NCBI GenBank assembly: GCA_016208105.1 | Contig: JACQYS010000022.1 | Coordinates: 248,001 to 312,000, forward strand | Direction of reading: 5' to 3' | DNA: 64,000 bases | Origin: Desulfovibrio sp. | GTDB lineage: Bacteria > Desulfobacterota > Desulfovibrionia > Desulfovibrionales > Desulfovibrionaceae | Shown: positions 19,703-27,313 of the stretch, one piece after another | Position numbering within the stretch: the first letter of the stretch is position 1 | Layout of the letters: each line of letters begins with the position of its first letter | The notes under the pieces: model-generated | What the model saw: only the letters and a program-made list of their open reading frames with translations | What the model was told of the DNA's origin: nothing | Database searches by the model: none | Translations under genes and position numbers: made by a program

Positions 19703-20173
19703 ATGAAGAAAAGAACACTCTTGTACGCGGTATGCGCCTTTACTGTCCTGGCCGGGCTGTGCGCGTCCGTTTTCCCGGTTCAGGCCCAGGAAGGGGCACG
19801 GGGCGACGTTTCCGGGCACGTGACCATGCGCGTTGGGCGCGGGGCCCTTCTCATCAGCGCCACCGGCGGGGACGGCGAACTGACTTTTGAGGGCCAGTCC
19901 CACAAGTTCAAGCTGGGCGGAATGGGCATAGGTCTTGTGGGCTTCACCACCGTGGACGCGGAGGGCGATGTTTTCAACCTGAAAAAGATTGAGGACTTTG
20001 CCGGAGCATATGTCCAGGGCGGTGCGGACTATGCCGCTGGAGACGGCCAGGGGGTTTTGTGGCTTAAGAACACCAAAGGTGTGGTCATGAAGCTGCGCTC
20101 CAAGACCAAAGGGGTTTCCCTGGCGGTTGGGGGCGAGGGACTTCTGGTTCAGATGGGGAACCTGAAAAAGTAG
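19703..20173 (+). CDS. Exported protein of unknown function, first of two tandem paralogues
   Basis: 156 residues. A signal peptide (LLYAVCAFTVLAGLCASVFP, cleavage after VQA) is followed by a compact, beta-rich domain with alternating Gly and hydrophobic residues (VTMRVGRGALLISATGGDG, FKLGGMGIGLVGF, VFNLKKIEDFAGAYVQG). It is clearly homologous to the next gene, with shared segments GxxxxFxLGxxGxGxxGF, GxVxNLKxIEDFxGxYxQ and GVVxKLxxKxKG. Located 37 nt after hemW, it is likely periplasmic. I do not recognise the family, and no function should be inferred. Confidence 0.75.
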   Translation: MKKRTLLYAVCAFTVLAGLCASVFPVQAQEGARGDVSGHVTMRVGRGALLISATGGDGELTFEGQSHKFKLGGMGIGLVGFTTVDAEGDVFNLKKIEDFAGAYVQGGADYAAGDGQGVLWLKNTKGVVMKLRSKTKGVSLAVGGEGLLVQMGNLKK

Positions 20174-20319
20174 CCCCCCGGGCCGATCCGCCCGTGGCCT
20201 GCATTTGGATGCCCGCCTTTCGGGCATGGTCCGTCCTGTTTGCGAAAAGTCCTTCCTGGTGGCACATGTGGCGTACACGTCAGCCCGTACCGGGCGCGAA
20301 ACAAAACAGGAGCCGATCC

Positions 20320-20808
20320 ATGTCCGCACGTTTTTTCCTCAATCTTCTGCTTGTTGCCGCAGTCTGCGCTGTTCTCGCGCTTCCGAACGCCGCTTTCGCC
20401 CAGGATCACCCCACGGGCAAGGCCCTTCCCGTGGAGGAGAAACTCTCGGGGAACGTCACCATGGAATTCGGCCAGGGCGGTTTCATCCTGAGTGCCAGCG
20501 GAGGCAGCGGAACGCTCATCTTCAACGGCCGCAAGTATTCCTTCAAATTGGGGAGCCTCGGTGTCGGCGGGTTTGGCGTCTCCAAGATCACGGCTGTGGG
20601 CGAAGTCTACAACCTGAAAAGGATTGAGGATTTTCCCGGCGGTTATTTCCAGGCCCGTGCCGGCTATGCGGCAGTGGACGGCAAGGGGAAGCTCTGGCTG
20701 GAGAATACCCACGGCGTGGTCCTGAAGCTCAAGGCCAAGAGCAAGGGCCTTGCCTTGAATCTGGGCGCGGACGGCTTGATGATCGAGATGGGGGGGAGCA
20801 AGAAGTAA
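20320..20808 (+). CDS. Exported protein of unknown function, second tandem paralogue
   Basis: 162 residues from the ATG at 20320, with AGGAG upstream. A signal peptide ends near NAAFAQD. The mature domain parallels the preceding gene (VTMEFGQGGFILSASGGSG, FKLGSLGVGGFGVSK, VYNLKRIEDFPGGYFQ, GVVLKLKAKSKGLAL). The pair therefore arose by duplication and has diverged to perhaps 50% identity by eye. The intergenic spacer holds an ATGCCCG/CGGGCAT hairpin. The function is unknown. Confidence 0.75.
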   Translation: MSARFFLNLLLVAAVCAVLALPNAAFAQDHPTGKALPVEEKLSGNVTMEFGQGGFILSASGGSGTLIFNGRKYSFKLGSLGVGGFGVSKITAVGEVYNLKRIEDFPGGYFQARAGYAAVDGKGKLWLENTHGVVLKLKAKSKGLALNLGADGLMIEMGGSKK

Positions 20809-21299: not shown

Positions 21300-22670
21300 T
21301 CACGATGTGATGATGCGGTCGCAGCTGACAGCGTGTTTGCGCATCCTGTTGAGCACGGTCAGCCTGCTGACGCCAAGAAGCCTGGCCGCTTCGCTTTTAT
21401 TGCCCCCACTTTGGCGCAGGGCGTCGACTAGCGCGGCCCGTTCCTGGTCGGGTAACGTGCTCGCCGGCTGCGAAGCTGGAAGGCTCGGCCGCTCCCCGCC
21501 GATCCCGGGAGGCAGATGGGCGGGTTCGATTCGTTTCCCCTCGGCGAGCACCATGGCGTATTCCAGGGCGCTTTTGAGCTCCCGGACGTTGCCTGGCCAG
21601 CGGTACACCATGAGCGCGCGCATGGTCTCGGGAGTCAATACGGCAGGCTCCCTCCCGGATGTGGCCGAAATCTTGTGGAGGAAGTGCTCGGCCAGGAGAG
21701 GGAGATCCTCCATGCGCTCTCTGAGAGGCGGAATTTCAATGGGGATCACGTTTATCCTGAAGAAGAAATCCTCCCGGAACCGTCCCTGGGCAATGAGGGT
21801 GCGAAGATCCTGGTGCGTCGCGGTAATCAGCCGGACGTCAACCGGAATGGATTTGTTTTCCCCCACCCGTTCCATGCTCTTGGTCTCGAGAACCCGCAGA
21901 AGCTTCACCTGGATGGAGAGCGGCGCATCGCCGATTTCATCCAGGAAGATGTCCCCCCCGTGGGCTTCTTCAAAGCGCCCCCGGCGTTCCCGGTAGGCGC
22001 CGGTGAACGCGCCTTTGGCGTGCCCGAAGAGTTCGCTTTCCAGAAGAGACTCGTTTAGTGCCGCGCAGTTGAGCTGAACGAACGGCCCTTTCTTGCGTCC
22101 CCCCAATTCGTGTATCGCCTTGGCGGCAAGTTCCTTGCCCGTGCCGGATTCGCCCAGAAAGAGCACCGGCGCGCCGGACTTGGCGGCCTTTTCGAGGATG
22201 TCGTACAGCTTCGTCATGGGGGGAGAGGCCCCTATCATGCCGTGGAAAGCTCCAGGTTCGACAAGGAGCTTTGAGAGCTCCTCCACCTTGCGGTCCAGCC
22301 GGTCCAGCTCGCTCAAGTCGAGCACGCTTTCCACGGCCCCGAGAAGGCTGCCGTCCTTGTCATGCAAAAGGGATTGGTTCTTGAAAGCAGGGAGGTAGGA
22401 GCCGTCCTTCCGGCGGATGCGGCAGCGCTTGGCCTCGCTTTTTCTCTCGGCGAAAAGCTTGCACCAGGCACCTTTCACGTTCCGGCGCTGGCGGGCGCAA
22501 ATGTCGCACCCCAGAACCGCGCAGGAGTGGTCGAGCAGTTCCTCCCGGGTGTATCCGGTCAGCCGGGCCATGGCTTCGTTGACCATGACGATTCGCCCGT
22601 CGGGATTGACGATGAACACGCCTTCCTGAATGGCATGGCAGATTTCCTGCCAATGTTTGCTTATGTCCAT
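21300..22670 (-). CDS. Sigma-54-dependent transcriptional activator with Cys-rich PAS sensor
   Basis: 456 residues. The N-terminal 115 residues form a PAS domain (IVNPDGRIVMVNEAMARLTG) with an unusual cysteine set (CAVLGCDICARQ, then WC and RC), suggesting redox, metal or Fe-S sensing. The central AAA+ domain has Walker A GESGTGKE, the sigma-54 contact GAFTGA, and LFLDEIGDAPLSIQ-type Walker B. A Fis-type HTH ends the protein (NKSEAARLLGVSRLTVLNRM). It is divergent from the redox operon at 22829, whose upstream region has a near-consensus sigma-54 promoter, so this is very likely its activator. There is no response-regulator receiver domain, so it senses its signal directly. Confidence 0.93.
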   Translation of the reverse strand: MDISKHWQEICHAIQEGVFIVNPDGRIVMVNEAMARLTGYTREELLDHSCAVLGCDICARQRRNVKGAWCKLFAERKSEAKRCRIRRKDGSYLPAFKNQSLLHDKDGSLLGAVESVLDLSELDRLDRKVEELSKLLVEPGAFHGMIGASPPMTKLYDILEKAAKSGAPVLFLGESGTGKELAAKAIHELGGRKKGPFVQLNCAALNESLLESELFGHAKGAFTGAYRERRGRFEEAHGGDIFLDEIGDAPLSIQVKLLRVLETKSMERVGENKSIPVDVRLITATHQDLRTLIAQGRFREDFFFRINVIPIEIPPLRERMEDLPLLAEHFLHKISATSGREPAVLTPETMRALMVYRWPGNVRELKSALEYAMVLAEGKRIEPAHLPPGIGGERPSLPASQPASTLPDQERAALVDALRQSGGNKSEAARLLGVSRLTVLNRMRKHAVSCDRIITS

Positions 22671-22828: not shown

Positions 22829-23899
22829 ATGCTCACTTCTGTAGACACGAAATCCAGGTTCTCGCGCAGGACCCTGTTCAAAACACTCGGCCTGGGAGGA
22901 GCGGCGGCATTGATGCCAGCCCGCTCTCGCGCAGCCGTTCTCCCGGACACCGGCCAGGAAATGGCCACGCTCCTCGACCTTAACAAGTGTATAGGCTGTG
23001 GCGCCTGCGTGGACGCCTGCCGCGATGTGAACGCCTCGCGCTATCCCGAGCCCAAGAAGCCCTTCCCGGTGATGTATCCGTCCCGGGTGAAGGCCGAGGA
23101 CTTCTCGGACAATCGCCATGTGGACAACCGGCTCACCCCCTACAACTGGCTCTTCATTCAAAGCGCCACGGCTGAGGGTCGCGAAGTATTCATCCCCAGG
23201 CGGTGCATGCATTGCCAGAATCCGCCCTGCGCCAACCTCTGCCCTTGGGGGGCGGCGGCCAGGCAGGGCAGCGGAACAGTGGCCATCAACACCGATATTT
23301 GTCTGGGCGGGGCCAAATGCCGCGACGTCTGCCCCTGGGAAATACCCCAGCGCCAGACCGGGGTCGGCCTCTATCTGGATCTGGCGCCCTCCCTGGGGGG
23401 AAACGGCGTGATGTTCAAGTGCGACCGCTGCTCGGACCGGGTTGCAAACGGAAAGCTCCCGGCCTGTATCGGGGCCTGCCCGAACGGGGTGCAGGAGATG
23501 GGGCCGCGCGATGTCATTGTGGCCAAGGCGCGCGACCTGGCCAAGGCCACAGGCGGCTTTCTCTACGGCCTGGAGGAGAACGGGGGGACAAATACCATCT
23601 ACCTTTCACCAGTTTCCTTCGAAAAATTGAACGCCGCCTTGATGGAAGGCAAGCAAAGTGGCAAGACCGGAGCTAATACCTCGGAAAGGGTTGAGCAGCA
23701 GGGCCCGGGGCGCCCGCATCTGGCCAGGGTTGCAGACGTCATGGCCGGGTCCAACACCCTGGCCTGGGCCGTGCTGCTGGCCCCGCTGGCCGGAGTCGCC
23801 TCGGCCTTTCTCAAAGGGACACGCAAACTGATGAACACCTCCTCACCCCAACCGGCCGTTTCCGATGCCGCTGCCAGGAAGGAGGAGCGCAATGCCTAG
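22829..23899 (+). CDS. Tat-exported four-cluster ferredoxin-like subunit with C-terminal membrane anchor
   Basis: 356 residues. A twin-arginine signal (SRRTLFKTLG) leads to a periplasmic protein with four cysteine clusters in the DMSO-reductase B-subunit pattern (CIGCGACVDAC; CMHCQNPPCANLC; CLGGAKCRDVC; CDRCSDRVANGKLPACIGAC), enough for four [4Fe-4S] centres. A C-terminal helix (LAWAVLLAPLAGVASAFL) anchors it. It should pass electrons between the b/c cytochrome and a partner. The ATG at 22829 has no ribosome site and sits almost on the predicted transcription start, so the mRNA may be leaderless or the start may lie elsewhere; no other start precedes the Tat motif. It overlaps the next gene by 8 nt. 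Confidence 0.88.
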   Translation: MLTSVDTKSRFSRRTLFKTLGLGGAAALMPARSRAAVLPDTGQEMATLLDLNKCIGCGACVDACRDVNASRYPEPKKPFPVMYPSRVKAEDFSDNRHVDNRLTPYNWLFIQSATAEGREVFIPRRCMHCQNPPCANLCPWGAAARQGSGTVAINTDICLGGAKCRDVCPWEIPQRQTGVGLYLDLAPSLGGNGVMFKCDRCSDRVANGKLPACIGACPNGVQEMGPRDVIVAKARDLAKATGGFLYGLEENGGTNTIYLSPVSFEKLNAALMEGKQSGKTGANTSERVEQQGPGRPHLARVADVMAGSNTLAWAVLLAPLAGVASAFLKGTRKLMNTSSPQPAVSDAAARKEERNA

Positions 23900-24305
23900 C
23901 CTCACCCTCTACCGTCTGGTGGTGGCGGTACTGGCCGTATCCGGGGTCGCCCAGATGCCCATATTCAAACGTTATTACATCGCGGACATCCCGGGGCTTG
24001 GATGGACAGCCGATTTCATCTTCACCCATCGTCTGCACTATCTGGCAGCGGCGGCGCTGCTCTTCTGGCTTGCCCGCCGCATTGTTCTTTCCGGAGCTTC
24101 TTCCATTGGCGAGGGGCGGCTGGCGCTTCTGCTGGCGCTTATCGCCACTGGCGTGCCCCGTATGCTCAAGAACCTTCCGGATGTCAGCTTTTCCCCCACA
24201 GCCACCATGCTGATCGATTGGACACACCTGGGCGCTGCCATGGCGCTCGGACTAACGGCACTGGCCATGGTTTTTAAACGTCATCCGCACACAAGCAGGA
24301 GGTAG
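23892..24305 (+). CDS. Small multi-span membrane protein of the cytochrome complex
   Basis: 137 residues from the ATG at 23892 (GGAGG upstream, overlapping the preceding gene by 8 nt). Four hydrophobic segments are visible (LYRLVVAVLAVSGVAQM, LHYLAAAALLFWLA, LALLLALIATGVPRML and LGAAMALGLTALAMVF). Conserved-looking histidines (THRLHY and DWTHLG) could ligate b-type haem, although the chain is short for a dihaem cytochrome b. It is probably the membrane partner of the ferredoxin-like subunit in the same operon. The family was not recognised. Confidence 0.8.
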   Translation: MPSLTLYRLVVAVLAVSGVAQMPIFKRYYIADIPGLGWTADFIFTHRLHYLAAAALLFWLARRIVLSGASSIGEGRLALLLALIATGVPRMLKNLPDVSFSPTATMLIDWTHLGAAMALGLTALAMVFKRHPHTSRR

Positions 24306-24309
24306 GCGT

Positions 24310-26802
24310 ATGGTCGCTGTTCGCGCCTTGGCGGCACTTTTCATCGTGGTTTTTTCGGTCACGGCGGCGCAGGCAAAATCCAAAGCCTGCCCTCCCTTTT
24401 TTCTGCGCGCCGAGAACGGTGCGGTGATAAACCCCGTAACCGGCGAGAACAAGGACTTGCCCATCTCCACCCGCCAGACCTGCGGCGCCCAGGGGTGCCA
24501 TGACTATGCGGCCATCACCAAGGGCTACCATTTCCAGCAGGGCTGGGACAACGTGAAGGACGGCTTCAGCAAGGACAAGCCCTGGGTGCTCTCGCCGGGA
24601 ATGATGGGCAAGTTCTGACCCCCCTCCTTTCGCCAGTTGGCGAAAAAGCAGAACGACAATGCCGACCAGATCGACATGACCCCCTTCACCTTCGCGGCCG
24701 ACGGCCCCAAGGACCCCAAGATGCTTGGCGTGCCAGGCTGCGGCGGGTGCCATCCCGGCGGCGGCGGGCTGGAGTTCGACCGCGACGGGCAGCGCTACGA
24801 CGCCCGGCTCAAGGCCGACCCCACGCTCTCGTCCTCCCTGGACGGCGACTACCACAAGAGCCAGTGGGACAAGACCGGCGTGCTGGAGGCCGACTGCTTC
24901 ATCTGCCATTTGCCCGGTTACAACTTCAAGGAACGCAACAAGCAGCTGAAGAAGCTCAACTTCCGTTGGTCCGCCACCGCTGCTTCGGGCATCGGACAGG
25001 TGGCCGGATTCGTTGACGAGGGCCAAACCCCGTCCGTCACCTACAATCTGCGCCTGTTCAACCAGGACGGCAAAGTGGCCTTGGACCTGACCGACAATCC
25101 GCCCAGCGAGAACTGCGTGTTCTGCCACGGCATGTCGGACATGAAAAAACGGGGCTTTTCCTGGAACGACCCGGTCAACCACGATGTGCACAACATGCGC
25201 GGCATGTCCTGCGTGAGCTGCCACCCGGGCGATATCAACCACAACTTCGCCAAGGGCCAGGAAAACGTGTCCACGGTGCGCGACGACCTGGACAACACCA
25301 TGAAGAAGTGCGCCGACTGCCACACCACCGGGTACATGGGCGCGCCCCGTCCCGAGCACGCCGGGGTGCGCCCCAGCCACCTGGAGAAGATGGCCTGCGA
25401 GGCCTGCCACATCCCGGCCCTGAACCGGGCCGGCGGCGAAGGCTTCGATGTCACCACCGGGGCCATGGTCAACTATCCCAAGGTCGGGGCCAAGGCCATG
25501 GGAGCGGAGTTCAAGTGGGAACCGCGCATGCAGCTGGTGAAACGCGGTCAGATAACGCCGGTCAATCCTCTGCTGGTGGTCACCTGGACCAACAAGGACG
25601 CGGACGGCAAGTATTATCCGCTGTTCATGCGCGAACTCAAGAAGGGCTGGGAAGTCGCTTCTCCTCAGATCAAGGATCAGAAGGCTCCCGGCAAGCCCGA
25701 GCTGCACAAGCCTGAGGATATCAAAACCATGATCCTCGCGCTTACCAAGACCCTGGAGGGCAACAAGCGCTTCACCCAGATCGCGCCCGCCTACCACAAG
25801 GGCGGAGAGATCCACACCCTCGGTCCGGACGGCACGGTCGTCACCCGCAAGGACGACACCTGGGTGGGGCATGTGGAAGGCTTCAACATCAACCACAACG
25901 TCGCTCCGGCCAAGCTGGCCCTGGGCGCCAACGGCTGCCGGGACTGCCATTCGGATACGGGCAACGTTTTGGCCGGGCGCATGGTCACGGACATGTTCGG
26001 CAAGGACGGCAAGCCTGTCCGCACTACCAATGCAGCGCTTCTTGGCATCAGCGCTACCGCCCTTGGAGTCAACAACGCCTACCAGGCACTGGTTGTCCCC
26101 TACGGCAGCTGGGTCATCCTTATTTTGGGGTTTATGCTGACCCTGCACTACACCGGCCAGGGGCCCAAGGGGCTTGATATGCGCCACGAGCCAGGGGAGA
26201 TCGTCCGCTTCGGCCTGGCCGAGCGCTGGTCGCACCTGATCCGCTTTGTGGCCTTCGTGGTCCTGGCCGTAACCGGCTATGTGTTCTTTACAAGCAACGC
26301 CACCCTGGCCAAGGCCCTGTTCGGGTCGTACAAGATAGCGTCCATCTGGCATTGGTGTGCCGGGCTCGTGTTTACGGCTATGGGGCTATACAGCTTCAGC
26401 CTGTGGGTAAAGGACGCGGTCTTCAAACCATACGATACCAAGTGGTTCGCCATGCGGGGCGGCTACCTGGGCCGGACGGAAAGCTCTGAGCACGCCCCGG
26501 CCGGAAGGCTCAACGCCGGGCAGAAGGTGTTCTTCTGGCTGTCGCTTATTCTGACGCTCATCCTGGCCGCAACGGGCATCCCGCTCATCTGGAAGGAGGC
26601 CCTTTCGGCCAATACGGCGCTGGTCCTCTCGACGATACATGGCCTGGGAGCGGTATTGCTGGTGGCCTGTGCTTTGGCCCACGCCTACCTGGGCACCATC
26701 GCCAATCCGGGGACGTGGAGGGTGCTGGTGGACGGCAAGGTGAGCCGTGCCTGGGCCCGGGAACACCACAGTGAGTGGTATAAGGAACTCGACGGCAAAT
26801 AG
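24310..26802 (+). CDS. Probable selenoprotein: octahaem cytochrome c fused to a cytochrome b561-type membrane domain (in-frame TGA at codon 103)
   Basis: 830 residues if TGA at 24616-24618 is read as selenocysteine (codon 103). AGGAGG lies 7 nt before the ATG. A signal peptide (VAVRALAALFIVVFSVTAAQA) is followed by haem 1, CGAQGCH (Cys58; CX4CH), then seven CXXCH motifs at Cys144, 196, 269, 301, 334, 363 and 543. From about residue 598 there are five membrane helices with His pairs typical of dihaem b561/FdnI-like subunits (ERWSHLIRF, IWHWCAGL, STIHGLGAV, ALAHAYLG). The part after the TGA has only a TTG, no ribosome site and no signal peptide, so it cannot be an independent exported cytochrome. 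A SECIS-like hairpin follows the TGA. Alternatives: a nonsense mutation, or a TGC/TGG sequencing error. It would be the catalytic or electron-wiring subunit of a membrane-bound periplasmic complex. Confidence 0.8.
24616..24645 (+). promoter_or_regulatory. UGA codon with putative bacterial SECIS hairpin
   Basis: UGA at 24616-24618 is followed by 9 nt and then a perfect 7-bp stem (UUUCGCC 24628-24634 with GGCGAAA 24639-24645) closed by the loop AGUU. The loop starts 16 nt after the UGA and has G in its second position, within the spacing and loop rules described for bacterial SECIS elements; in E. coli fdhF the corresponding loop begins 17 nt after its UGA. SelB would bind this loop to insert selenocysteine. 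Confidence 0.65.
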
Positions 26803-26854: not shown

Positions 26855-27313
26855 ATGAAGAATGATGCACCCGAAACCGGTAGTCAGAGGTACGCCTTCA
26901 TCTGTTCCCGGGGAACCCTGGACGGAGCCTACCCCGCGCTCATTCTGGCCATCAACGCCCGCAGGCTGGGGCATGAAGCCTTCGTGTTCCATACCTTCAT
27001 GGGCATAAACGCCGTGCGCAAAGGCAAGCTGGAGTCCTTCAAGTTCTATCCGCCGGGATTTCTGGGGGCCATCCCGGGCATGCCCCAGGTGGCGACCATG
27101 ATGATGAAGAAGCAGATCGACGAGGCGGGAATCCCGGACCTTCCGGAGCTTCAGGAGACCGCGCAGCTGGAGGGGGTCAAGCTCATCGCCTGCCGCATGA
27201 CCCTGGACATGATGAAGCTTGGCCAGAAGGACCTGATCGACGGCGTGGAGATCATGAATGCGGAGCAGTATCTGAAGCTGGCCGGAACGTGCGCCATCAA
27301 TATGTTCACCTAG
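26855..27313 (+). CDS. DsrE/DsrF-like small protein
   Basis: 152 residues from the ATG at 26855 with AAGGAGG upstream. The start YAFICSRGTLDGAYPALILA and the stretch HEAFVFHTFMGINAV match DsrE/DrsE2-like proteins, which act in sulfur transfer or oxidation networks; KLIACRMTLDMM contains a cysteine at the position where DsrE-type proteins often have one. It has no signal peptide, so it is cytoplasmic, unlike the rest of the operon. It follows the cytochrome gene by 52 nt, so co-transcription is likely and suggests that the complex handles a sulfur compound, but this is inference. Confidence 0.82.
   Translation: MKNDAPETGSQRYAFICSRGTLDGAYPALILAINARRLGHEAFVFHTFMGINAVRKGKLESFKFYPPGFLGAIPGMPQVATMMMKKQIDEAGIPDLPELQETAQLEGVKLIACRMTLDMMKLGQKDLIDGVEIMNAEQYLKLAGTCAINMFT

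Follow-up and report, generated by a model that had tools for sequence, protein, structure and literature searches.

A probable selenocysteine-containing octahaem cytochrome c fused to cytochrome b in an Ohc-like operon of Desulfovibrio

A gene for a multihaem cytochrome in a Desulfovibrio genome is interrupted by one in-frame TGA, which raises the question whether this codon ends the protein or is read as selenocysteine (Sec). The gene occupies positions 24310-26802, forward strand, of the window, by which we mean the whole analysed stretch of 64,000 nucleotides from contig JACQYS010000022.1 (assembly GCA_016208105.1), and would encode an octahaem cytochrome c joined to a membrane cytochrome b. 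A sequence-only reading of the window had proposed Sec; this is supported by the conservation of the UGA, the exchange of Sec for Cys in relatives, a downstream hairpin and the Sec machinery of the genome, so that the protein is very probably a selenoprotein. Our best overall explanation is a Sec-containing fused octahaem reductase in an operon resembling that of the Ohc complex, to which we assign a probability of roughly 85%.

An in-frame UGA in an octahaem cytochrome gene

One frame runs from ATG 24310 to TAG 26802 with TGA at codon 103 (24616-24618) as its sole internal stop codon and gives 830 amino acids on read-through; AGGAGG at 24297-24302 precedes the ATG with a spacing of 7 nt. The frame and the list of open reading frames (ORFs) thus bear out the single interrupted gene described at the outset. 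Without read-through the frame falls into ORFs of 102 and 721 codons, the second of which begins only at TTG 24637 and has no signal-peptide-like start in the ORF list, in agreement with the earlier claim that the downstream part is unfit to be an independent exported cytochrome. Standard gene callers would likely split the gene in two, and the larger ORF would then likely be annotated as a formate dehydrogenase gamma subunit, with loss of the Sec-bearing front part; selenoproteins are easily lost during annotation.

The predicted protein starts with a hydrophobic, signal-peptide-like segment (residues 1-22, 24310-24375) that ends in AQA and is helical at residues 2-22 in the structural model. 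The first haem site, C58-x4-C63-H64 (24481-24501), precedes codon 103. It is followed by CGGCH (144-148, 24739-24753), CFICH (196-200, 24895-24909), CVFCH (269-273) together with Asp277-x-x-Lys280 (25114-25149), CVSCH (301-305, 25210-25224), CADCH (334-338, 25309-25323), CEACH (363-367, 25396-25410) and CRDCH (543-547, 25936-25950), all of which are evident in the sequence and in alignments. Residues 633-801 (26206-26712) form a domain like cytochrome b561 and the gamma subunit of formate dehydrogenase, identified with Pfam, NCBIfam, a PDB sequence search and Foldseek. An AlphaFold2 model built from a 34-row alignment (mean predicted local distance difference test score, pLDDT, 80.9) has five long C-terminal helices (582-617, 636-661, 674-699, 736-760 and 767-797), and its sole PDB match in Foldseek at E ≤ 0.001 is cytochrome b 1kqf_C (E 1.5e-8); the next match, another cytochrome b, has E 0.06, and the remainder are weaker and mixed. 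Over the octahaem part no NCBIfam model reaches its cut-off in the proteins scanned, and PDB sequence searches gave weak matches only, to NrfA (over haem sites 5-6) and cytochrome c6. The leader, the eight haem motifs and the five-helix b domain anticipated from the sequence are therefore all present, as is the CX4CH form of haem site 1. This form is not general: it occurs in 4 of 13 aligned proteins versus CXXCH in 9.

A first contig scan yielded 16 relatives, 15 of them termed close (43-80% identity over the best segment), and TGA is aligned to codon 103 in 16/16 as well as in the window. The sixteenth (L018; 32% identity, 1271 amino acids) has TGA at the aligned column too. Searches of the phylum and the family (395 and 247 genomes) added 12 further close loci, three of which duplicate L009, L006 and L003, and TGA stands at the column in every one of the 12. 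With the window included, TGA is found in 25/25 distinct close loci, a set that contains two partial loci (L010 and L017) from one metagenome-assembled genome (MAG); TGA or Cys is also found in a sister clade. The TGA-bearing loci carry the labels of Deltaproteobacteria groups, Ammonifex (Bacillota) and a Candidatus Eisenbacteria MAG. Among 21 more distant octahaem loci that were fetched, ten have TGA at this column, four have Cys (TGT; L050, L055, L056 and L065) and seven have another residue; matches of the phylum search that were not fetched, some with TGA and some without, are left out of these counts. In one alignment the TGA of L053, L057 and L058 is two columns off because of a gap; in the tree alignment that of L053 and L058 is in column, and L057 carries the identical motif.

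We also built a quick maximum-likelihood tree from 34 protein sequences (33 different), comprising 25 with Sec, 4 with Cys and 5 with another residue. On this tree, which carries a long-branch warning, the states at the site require two changes, and Cys forms one clade beside Sec clades. The frame downstream of the TGA is open and the haem sites are conserved in an alignment of 13 homologous proteins. Two of the relatives show features of their own. L018 (2320-6135, from a Desulfuromonadaceae MAG) encodes a multihaem protein with a GKW-TGA-SPS..RQ motif and a hairpin as here, and possibly represents a further Sec cytochrome family. In L046 (G392:C234) the gene lies in two frames owing to a frameshift besides the TGA, which may be an assembly error.

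A hairpin resembling a selenocysteine insertion sequence (SECIS) follows the UGA on the forward strand at 24628-24645, with a 7-bp stem (TTTCGCC/GGCGAAA) and the loop AGTT at 24635-24638. The loop begins 17 nt past the UGA, and the fold has an energy of -9.7 kcal/mol (z -2.2). Codon constraint is stronger evidence for this element than the energy z-score. Of 77 five-column windows in 20 sequences, the one that spans codons F107-A111 has the lowest mean entropy (0.12 bit), and Q109, L110 and A111 are each encoded by a single codon in 20/20 sequences, which is true of only 2/228 other conserved columns; the codon used for L110, TTG, accounts for 9 of the 70 Leu codons of the gene. The stem is re-formed with different pairs in L012, L054 and L062, is shifted 6 nt downstream, together with a two-residue insert, in L047-L049, and is gone in all four Cys relatives, which retain RQLA. 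Being present, codon-constrained and lost where Cys is used, the hairpin supports decoding as Sec.

The genome itself, 99.99% complete, contains all four components that the sequence-only reading had named as worth looking for: selA (600 bits), selB (366 bits), tRNA-Sec (selC, 79.4 bits) and selD (334 bits), the last with an in-frame TGA of its own. Two formate dehydrogenase alpha genes of this genome exceed the cut-off, of which L109 has an in-frame TGA and L110 has none; they sit on other contigs (C20 and C10).

The operon and its kinship to octahaem tetrathionate reductase

The Ohc complex of Desulfovibrio is described as comprising the octahaem protein OhcA, the Fe-S protein OhcB and the haem-b protein OhcC, with a divergent sigma-54 regulator (PMC4641369). 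In the window, a gene for a sigma-54 enhancer-binding protein with a PAS domain, recognised in domain scans, lies on the reverse strand at 21300-22670, divergent to the operon. The other genes are on the forward strand. An HmcB/HybA-like, and OhcB-like, 4Fe-4S protein with an RR motif (SRRTLFK) near its N-terminus is encoded at 22829-23899, its matches to the HmcB and HybA models being below their cut-offs. A small membrane-protein-like ORF without a family match (23865-24305) adjoins the Fe-S gene in 24/24 fetched loci. The cytochrome gene is followed by one for a DsrE2-like sulfur-carrier-family protein (26855-27313), which scores above the cut-off of Pfam DrsE_2 and below that of NCBIfam SulfCarrDsrE2.

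At E ≤ 1e-30 the Fe-S protein is matched in 116/199 family genomes, and we surveyed the operon in the best 24 of these loci besides the window's. A sigma-54 activator is inside the 1.5-kb flank in 15/24. Five of the loci are from the same genus, and the cytochrome is present in four of them and absent in G491 (L130/L159), where the activator, the Fe-S gene and the small ORF are followed directly by DsrE2. The activator, Fe-S, octahaem and haem-b parts occur together in the window and in 4/6 other same-genus genomes. Haem motifs are found in the flank in 6 of the 19 loci from other genera; all six have a downstream octahaem gene of the family of octahaem tetrathionate reductase (OTR), followed in each case by a cytochrome b (PF01292). 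The OTR gene is directly past the small ORF in five of them and beyond one other ORF in L157, and the activator is present in five and was not seen in L157. Three of the six OTR-family proteins were scanned and score 636.5-642.8 bits with TIGR04315; the OTR site residue is Cys in five and TGA in L157. In the G213 region there is no octahaem gene downstream of the small ORF; G418 is uninformative because its region ends about 400 bases past that ORF. No OTR in the genome of the window itself exceeds the cut-off. Since six related genomes have, in this operon, an OTR-family gene and a separate one for cytochrome b, the cytochrome resembles a fusion of OhcA- and OhcC-type parts in the position of OTR, and we regard it as likely that it is a fused Ohc-type subunit standing where these two proteins would be.

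By score the protein is not a member of the OTR family (TIGR04315, 34.6 bits versus a cut-off of 375). Comparison of the 34-row family profile with one of 19 OTR proteins nevertheless gave a probability of 99.3 and an E-value of 7.7e-21 over haem sites 4-7, the span to which the unforced alignment is confined. A full-length alignment, forced in hhalign, pairs the eight haem sites one to one with those of OTR, in the same order, and places Asp277/Lys280 on OTR Asp150/Lys153 (1SP3 numbering, counted by hand). Lys153 is the residue that we take to be the ligand of the active haem in OTR. Beyond the CXXCH motifs only H74, H294, H311, H350, H357 and H529 are invariant His residues in the 34 rows, so two of the eight c-haems would have no invariant His partner, which would fit a Lys-ligated haem. 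The OTR loci that we fetched (n = 30) themselves have either TGA (16) or Cys (14) at the position of 1SP3 Cys64. Those with TGA are L081, L085, L086, L090, L092, L093, L095, L099-L101 and L103-L108, many with a strong stem-loop after the codon; L157, from a genome of the window's family, is a further OTR with TGA, and one within an Ohc-like operon.

Elsewhere in the window, 19703-20173 and 20194-20808 encode adjacent small exported-looking proteins that share similar GGxGxLxFxG...FKLG segments and have a relative at L003 1893-2375.

Proposed function and competing explanations

In the mechanism that we infer, SelB and tRNA-Sec would decode UGA103 as selenocysteine under the direction of the downstream hairpin, giving one exported protein of 830 residues with its eight c-haems in the periplasm and its b-type cytochrome in the membrane. 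This fused OhcA/OhcC-type subunit would work with the Fe-S protein and the small membrane protein, and electrons would presumably travel between the quinone pool and a catalytic haem by way of haem b and the haem chain; Lys280, the equivalent of OTR Lys153, is probably the axial ligand of this catalytic haem. Sec103 might act as a substrate-binding nucleophile or a redox partner. That it binds a metal or substrate, as first suggested from the sequence, is plausible; its position at or near a Lys-ligated catalytic haem is a tentative suggestion. The DsrE-type neighbours and the relationship to OTR suggest, as the likeliest reaction, that the protein reduces sulfur oxyanions or polysulfur compounds, which we rank first among possible functions while giving it somewhat less than even odds. 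DsrE-family genes are within about 2 kb in 7/20 other close loci, with a DsrE2 gene in one more, and a TauE-type exporter (L015) and a CsoR-type repressor (L118) occur once each among the scanned neighbours; these neighbours point to sulfur chemistry. Somewhat more speculative still is a new kind of centre, in which a Lys-ligated c-haem and Sec, in one chain with a quinone-linked cytochrome b, replace the two-gene pair of OTR and cytochrome b in an Ohc-type complex, both octahaem families using Sec or Cys for identical chemistry at different points of the chain. If Sec does act at the catalytic haem, the protein would be a haem-selenocysteine reductase, and its Sec and Cys relatives offer ready pairs for testing why selenium is used.

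Several observations weigh against this explanation or parts of it. The seven loci of a sister clade, f8 (L059, L060, L061, L063, L064, L066 and L067), have an unsplit frame with Gln, Ser, Phe, Ala or Trp at the column, so some octahaem relatives do without Sec or Cys; the expectation that homologues would have TGA or Cys here holds in other relatives and fails in this clade, whose genomes do have selB. In fact selB is over cut-off in 34/34 genomes (22 with TGA, 4 with Cys, 7 with another residue, and G491, which is without the gene) and is thus a necessary condition that does not discriminate. The energy of the hairpin alone is not outstanding, 6/200 shuffles folding as well, and single-sequence z-scores range from about -0.4 to -3.3 among Sec genes. 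The best fold of L051 differs, L045 has only four pairs and several distant Sec genes have five. Formal covariation is weak, with one pair changed on both sides, matched by 90/500 shuffles, because the close set hardly varies. Residues 71-110, which hold Sec103, are poorly modelled (block means 64-72), and the Foldseek search against the PDB matched the cytochrome b part only. In the OTR alignment Sec103 falls in an indel, 41 residues ahead of haem site 2 versus 10 for OTR Cys64; given the indel and the spacing, the two residues may occupy similar places and yet not correspond to each other. The remaining 13/19 Fe-S loci from other genera have no haem motifs in the flank, and DsrE-type genes are near only 8/20 other close loci, several of which have short flanks. 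Finally, one distant Sec relative (L119, G017) lies in a cluster of arsR, an ArsP permease and an SBF-family transporter, and two Cys relatives (L122, G132; L123, G214) are near LMW-phosphatase-family, possibly ArsC, genes.

The alternative that survives best, which we consider unlikely while leaving it an appreciable share of the probability, accepts the selenoprotein and makes it a non-catalytic electron conduit or quinol:cytochrome module in the style of Hmc or Ohc, in which Sec tunes or protects a haem. The Ohc system that the operon resembles is described as an electron-transfer complex (PMC4641369), the Fe-S partner is HmcB-like, and the f8 clade manages without Sec or Cys. On the other hand, an OTR-family gene occupies the same operon in six related genomes, Asp-x-x-Lys is kept, and the presence of Sec or Cys at a fixed site in 14/21 distant family loci and 30/30 OTR loci suggests chemistry at that residue.

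Distinctly less probable is a selenoprotein that acts on arsenic or on selenium/tellurium oxyanions instead of sulfur compounds. The arsenic-type genes next to the three relatives just named mean that the substrate may differ, and ExtKL, a multihaem cytochrome with a predicted Sec, has been linked to selenite reduction (PMC5877670). Against this, the scanned neighbours of the close clade, which do not amount to a full neighbour search, include no arsenic-type gene and do include DsrE-type genes.

We give very little credence to the idea that suppression or an altered code inserts Cys or Trp at the UGA. Relatives do have Cys at the identical site, but the genome has selA, selB, selC and selD together with in-frame UGA in fdhA and selD, the post-UGA hairpin is absent where Cys codons are used, and TGA terminates 3/11 window ORFs checked, among them that of the sigma-54 activator, as an ordinary stop. 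Least credible of all, and rejected on UGA conservation and codon constraint, is the view that the TGA truly ends the gene or stems from a sequencing error, leaving a short monohaem protein and a separate, possibly dead, heptahaem/cytochrome b ORF: the standard code does stop at TGA and two ORFs are listed, but the codon is retained throughout the distinct close loci, the frame behind it is open with conserved haem sites and offers only a TTG start without a leader, and the frozen codons and the hairpin would be left over.

Comparison with known systems

The Sec-containing multihaem cytochromes mentioned in the sequence-only reading do occur in the literature, as predictions or database annotation. 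A 2026 inventory of 119 families (PMC13188914, Table 1) lists ExtKL and an OTR-family octahaem Sec protein (GenBank-annotated only), and a 2022 table (PMC9312934) lists a cytochrome c family protein, which apparently corresponds to what was later entered as ExtKL. As a prediction, Sec is therefore already known in multihaem cytochromes. We found no entry for an octahaem-cytochrome b Sec fusion in the 2026 inventory (PMC13188914), the nearest being ExtKL and OTR, and the literature searched yielded nothing on such a fusion. Judged against that literature, the fusion family appears to be new, as do its hairpin, the Cys partners and the replacement within the operon.

ExtKL of Geobacter (NF040886) is likewise a multihaem c cytochrome with one predicted Sec; it differs in being a 49.5-kDa, five-haem protein (PMC5877670), and membership of this family was rejected at 9.9 bits versus a cut-off of 250. 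With the gamma subunit of formate dehydrogenase-N (1KQF chain C; TIGR01583) the protein shares its C-terminal cytochrome b, at 119.7 bits versus a cut-off of 115.85, which here is one domain within a larger cytochrome. The match is confined to the last 200 residues, and formate dehydrogenase function for the whole protein was rejected.

The likeness to OTR (TIGR04315; Shewanella oneidensis OTR, PDB 1SP3) lies in the eight aligned haem sites, the Asp-x-x-Lys that follows the fourth of them, the occurrence of Cys or Sec between the first and the second in both families, and the place that OTR occupies in the Ohc-like operon of six related genomes. In contrast to OTR, the Sec here belongs to another segment (GKF-U-PPSFRQLA) and is 41 residues ahead of the second haem site, and the protein is fused to a cytochrome b. 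The Ohc system of Desulfovibrio (OhcBAC with the enhancer-binding protein DVU3142), to which we liken the operon in the window on the basis of the published description (PMC4641369), has the same set of a divergent sigma-54 activator, an Fe-S protein, an octahaem cytochrome c and a haem-b membrane part; what sets the operon in the window apart is that its OhcA- and OhcC-type parts are fused in one chain, very probably with Sec.

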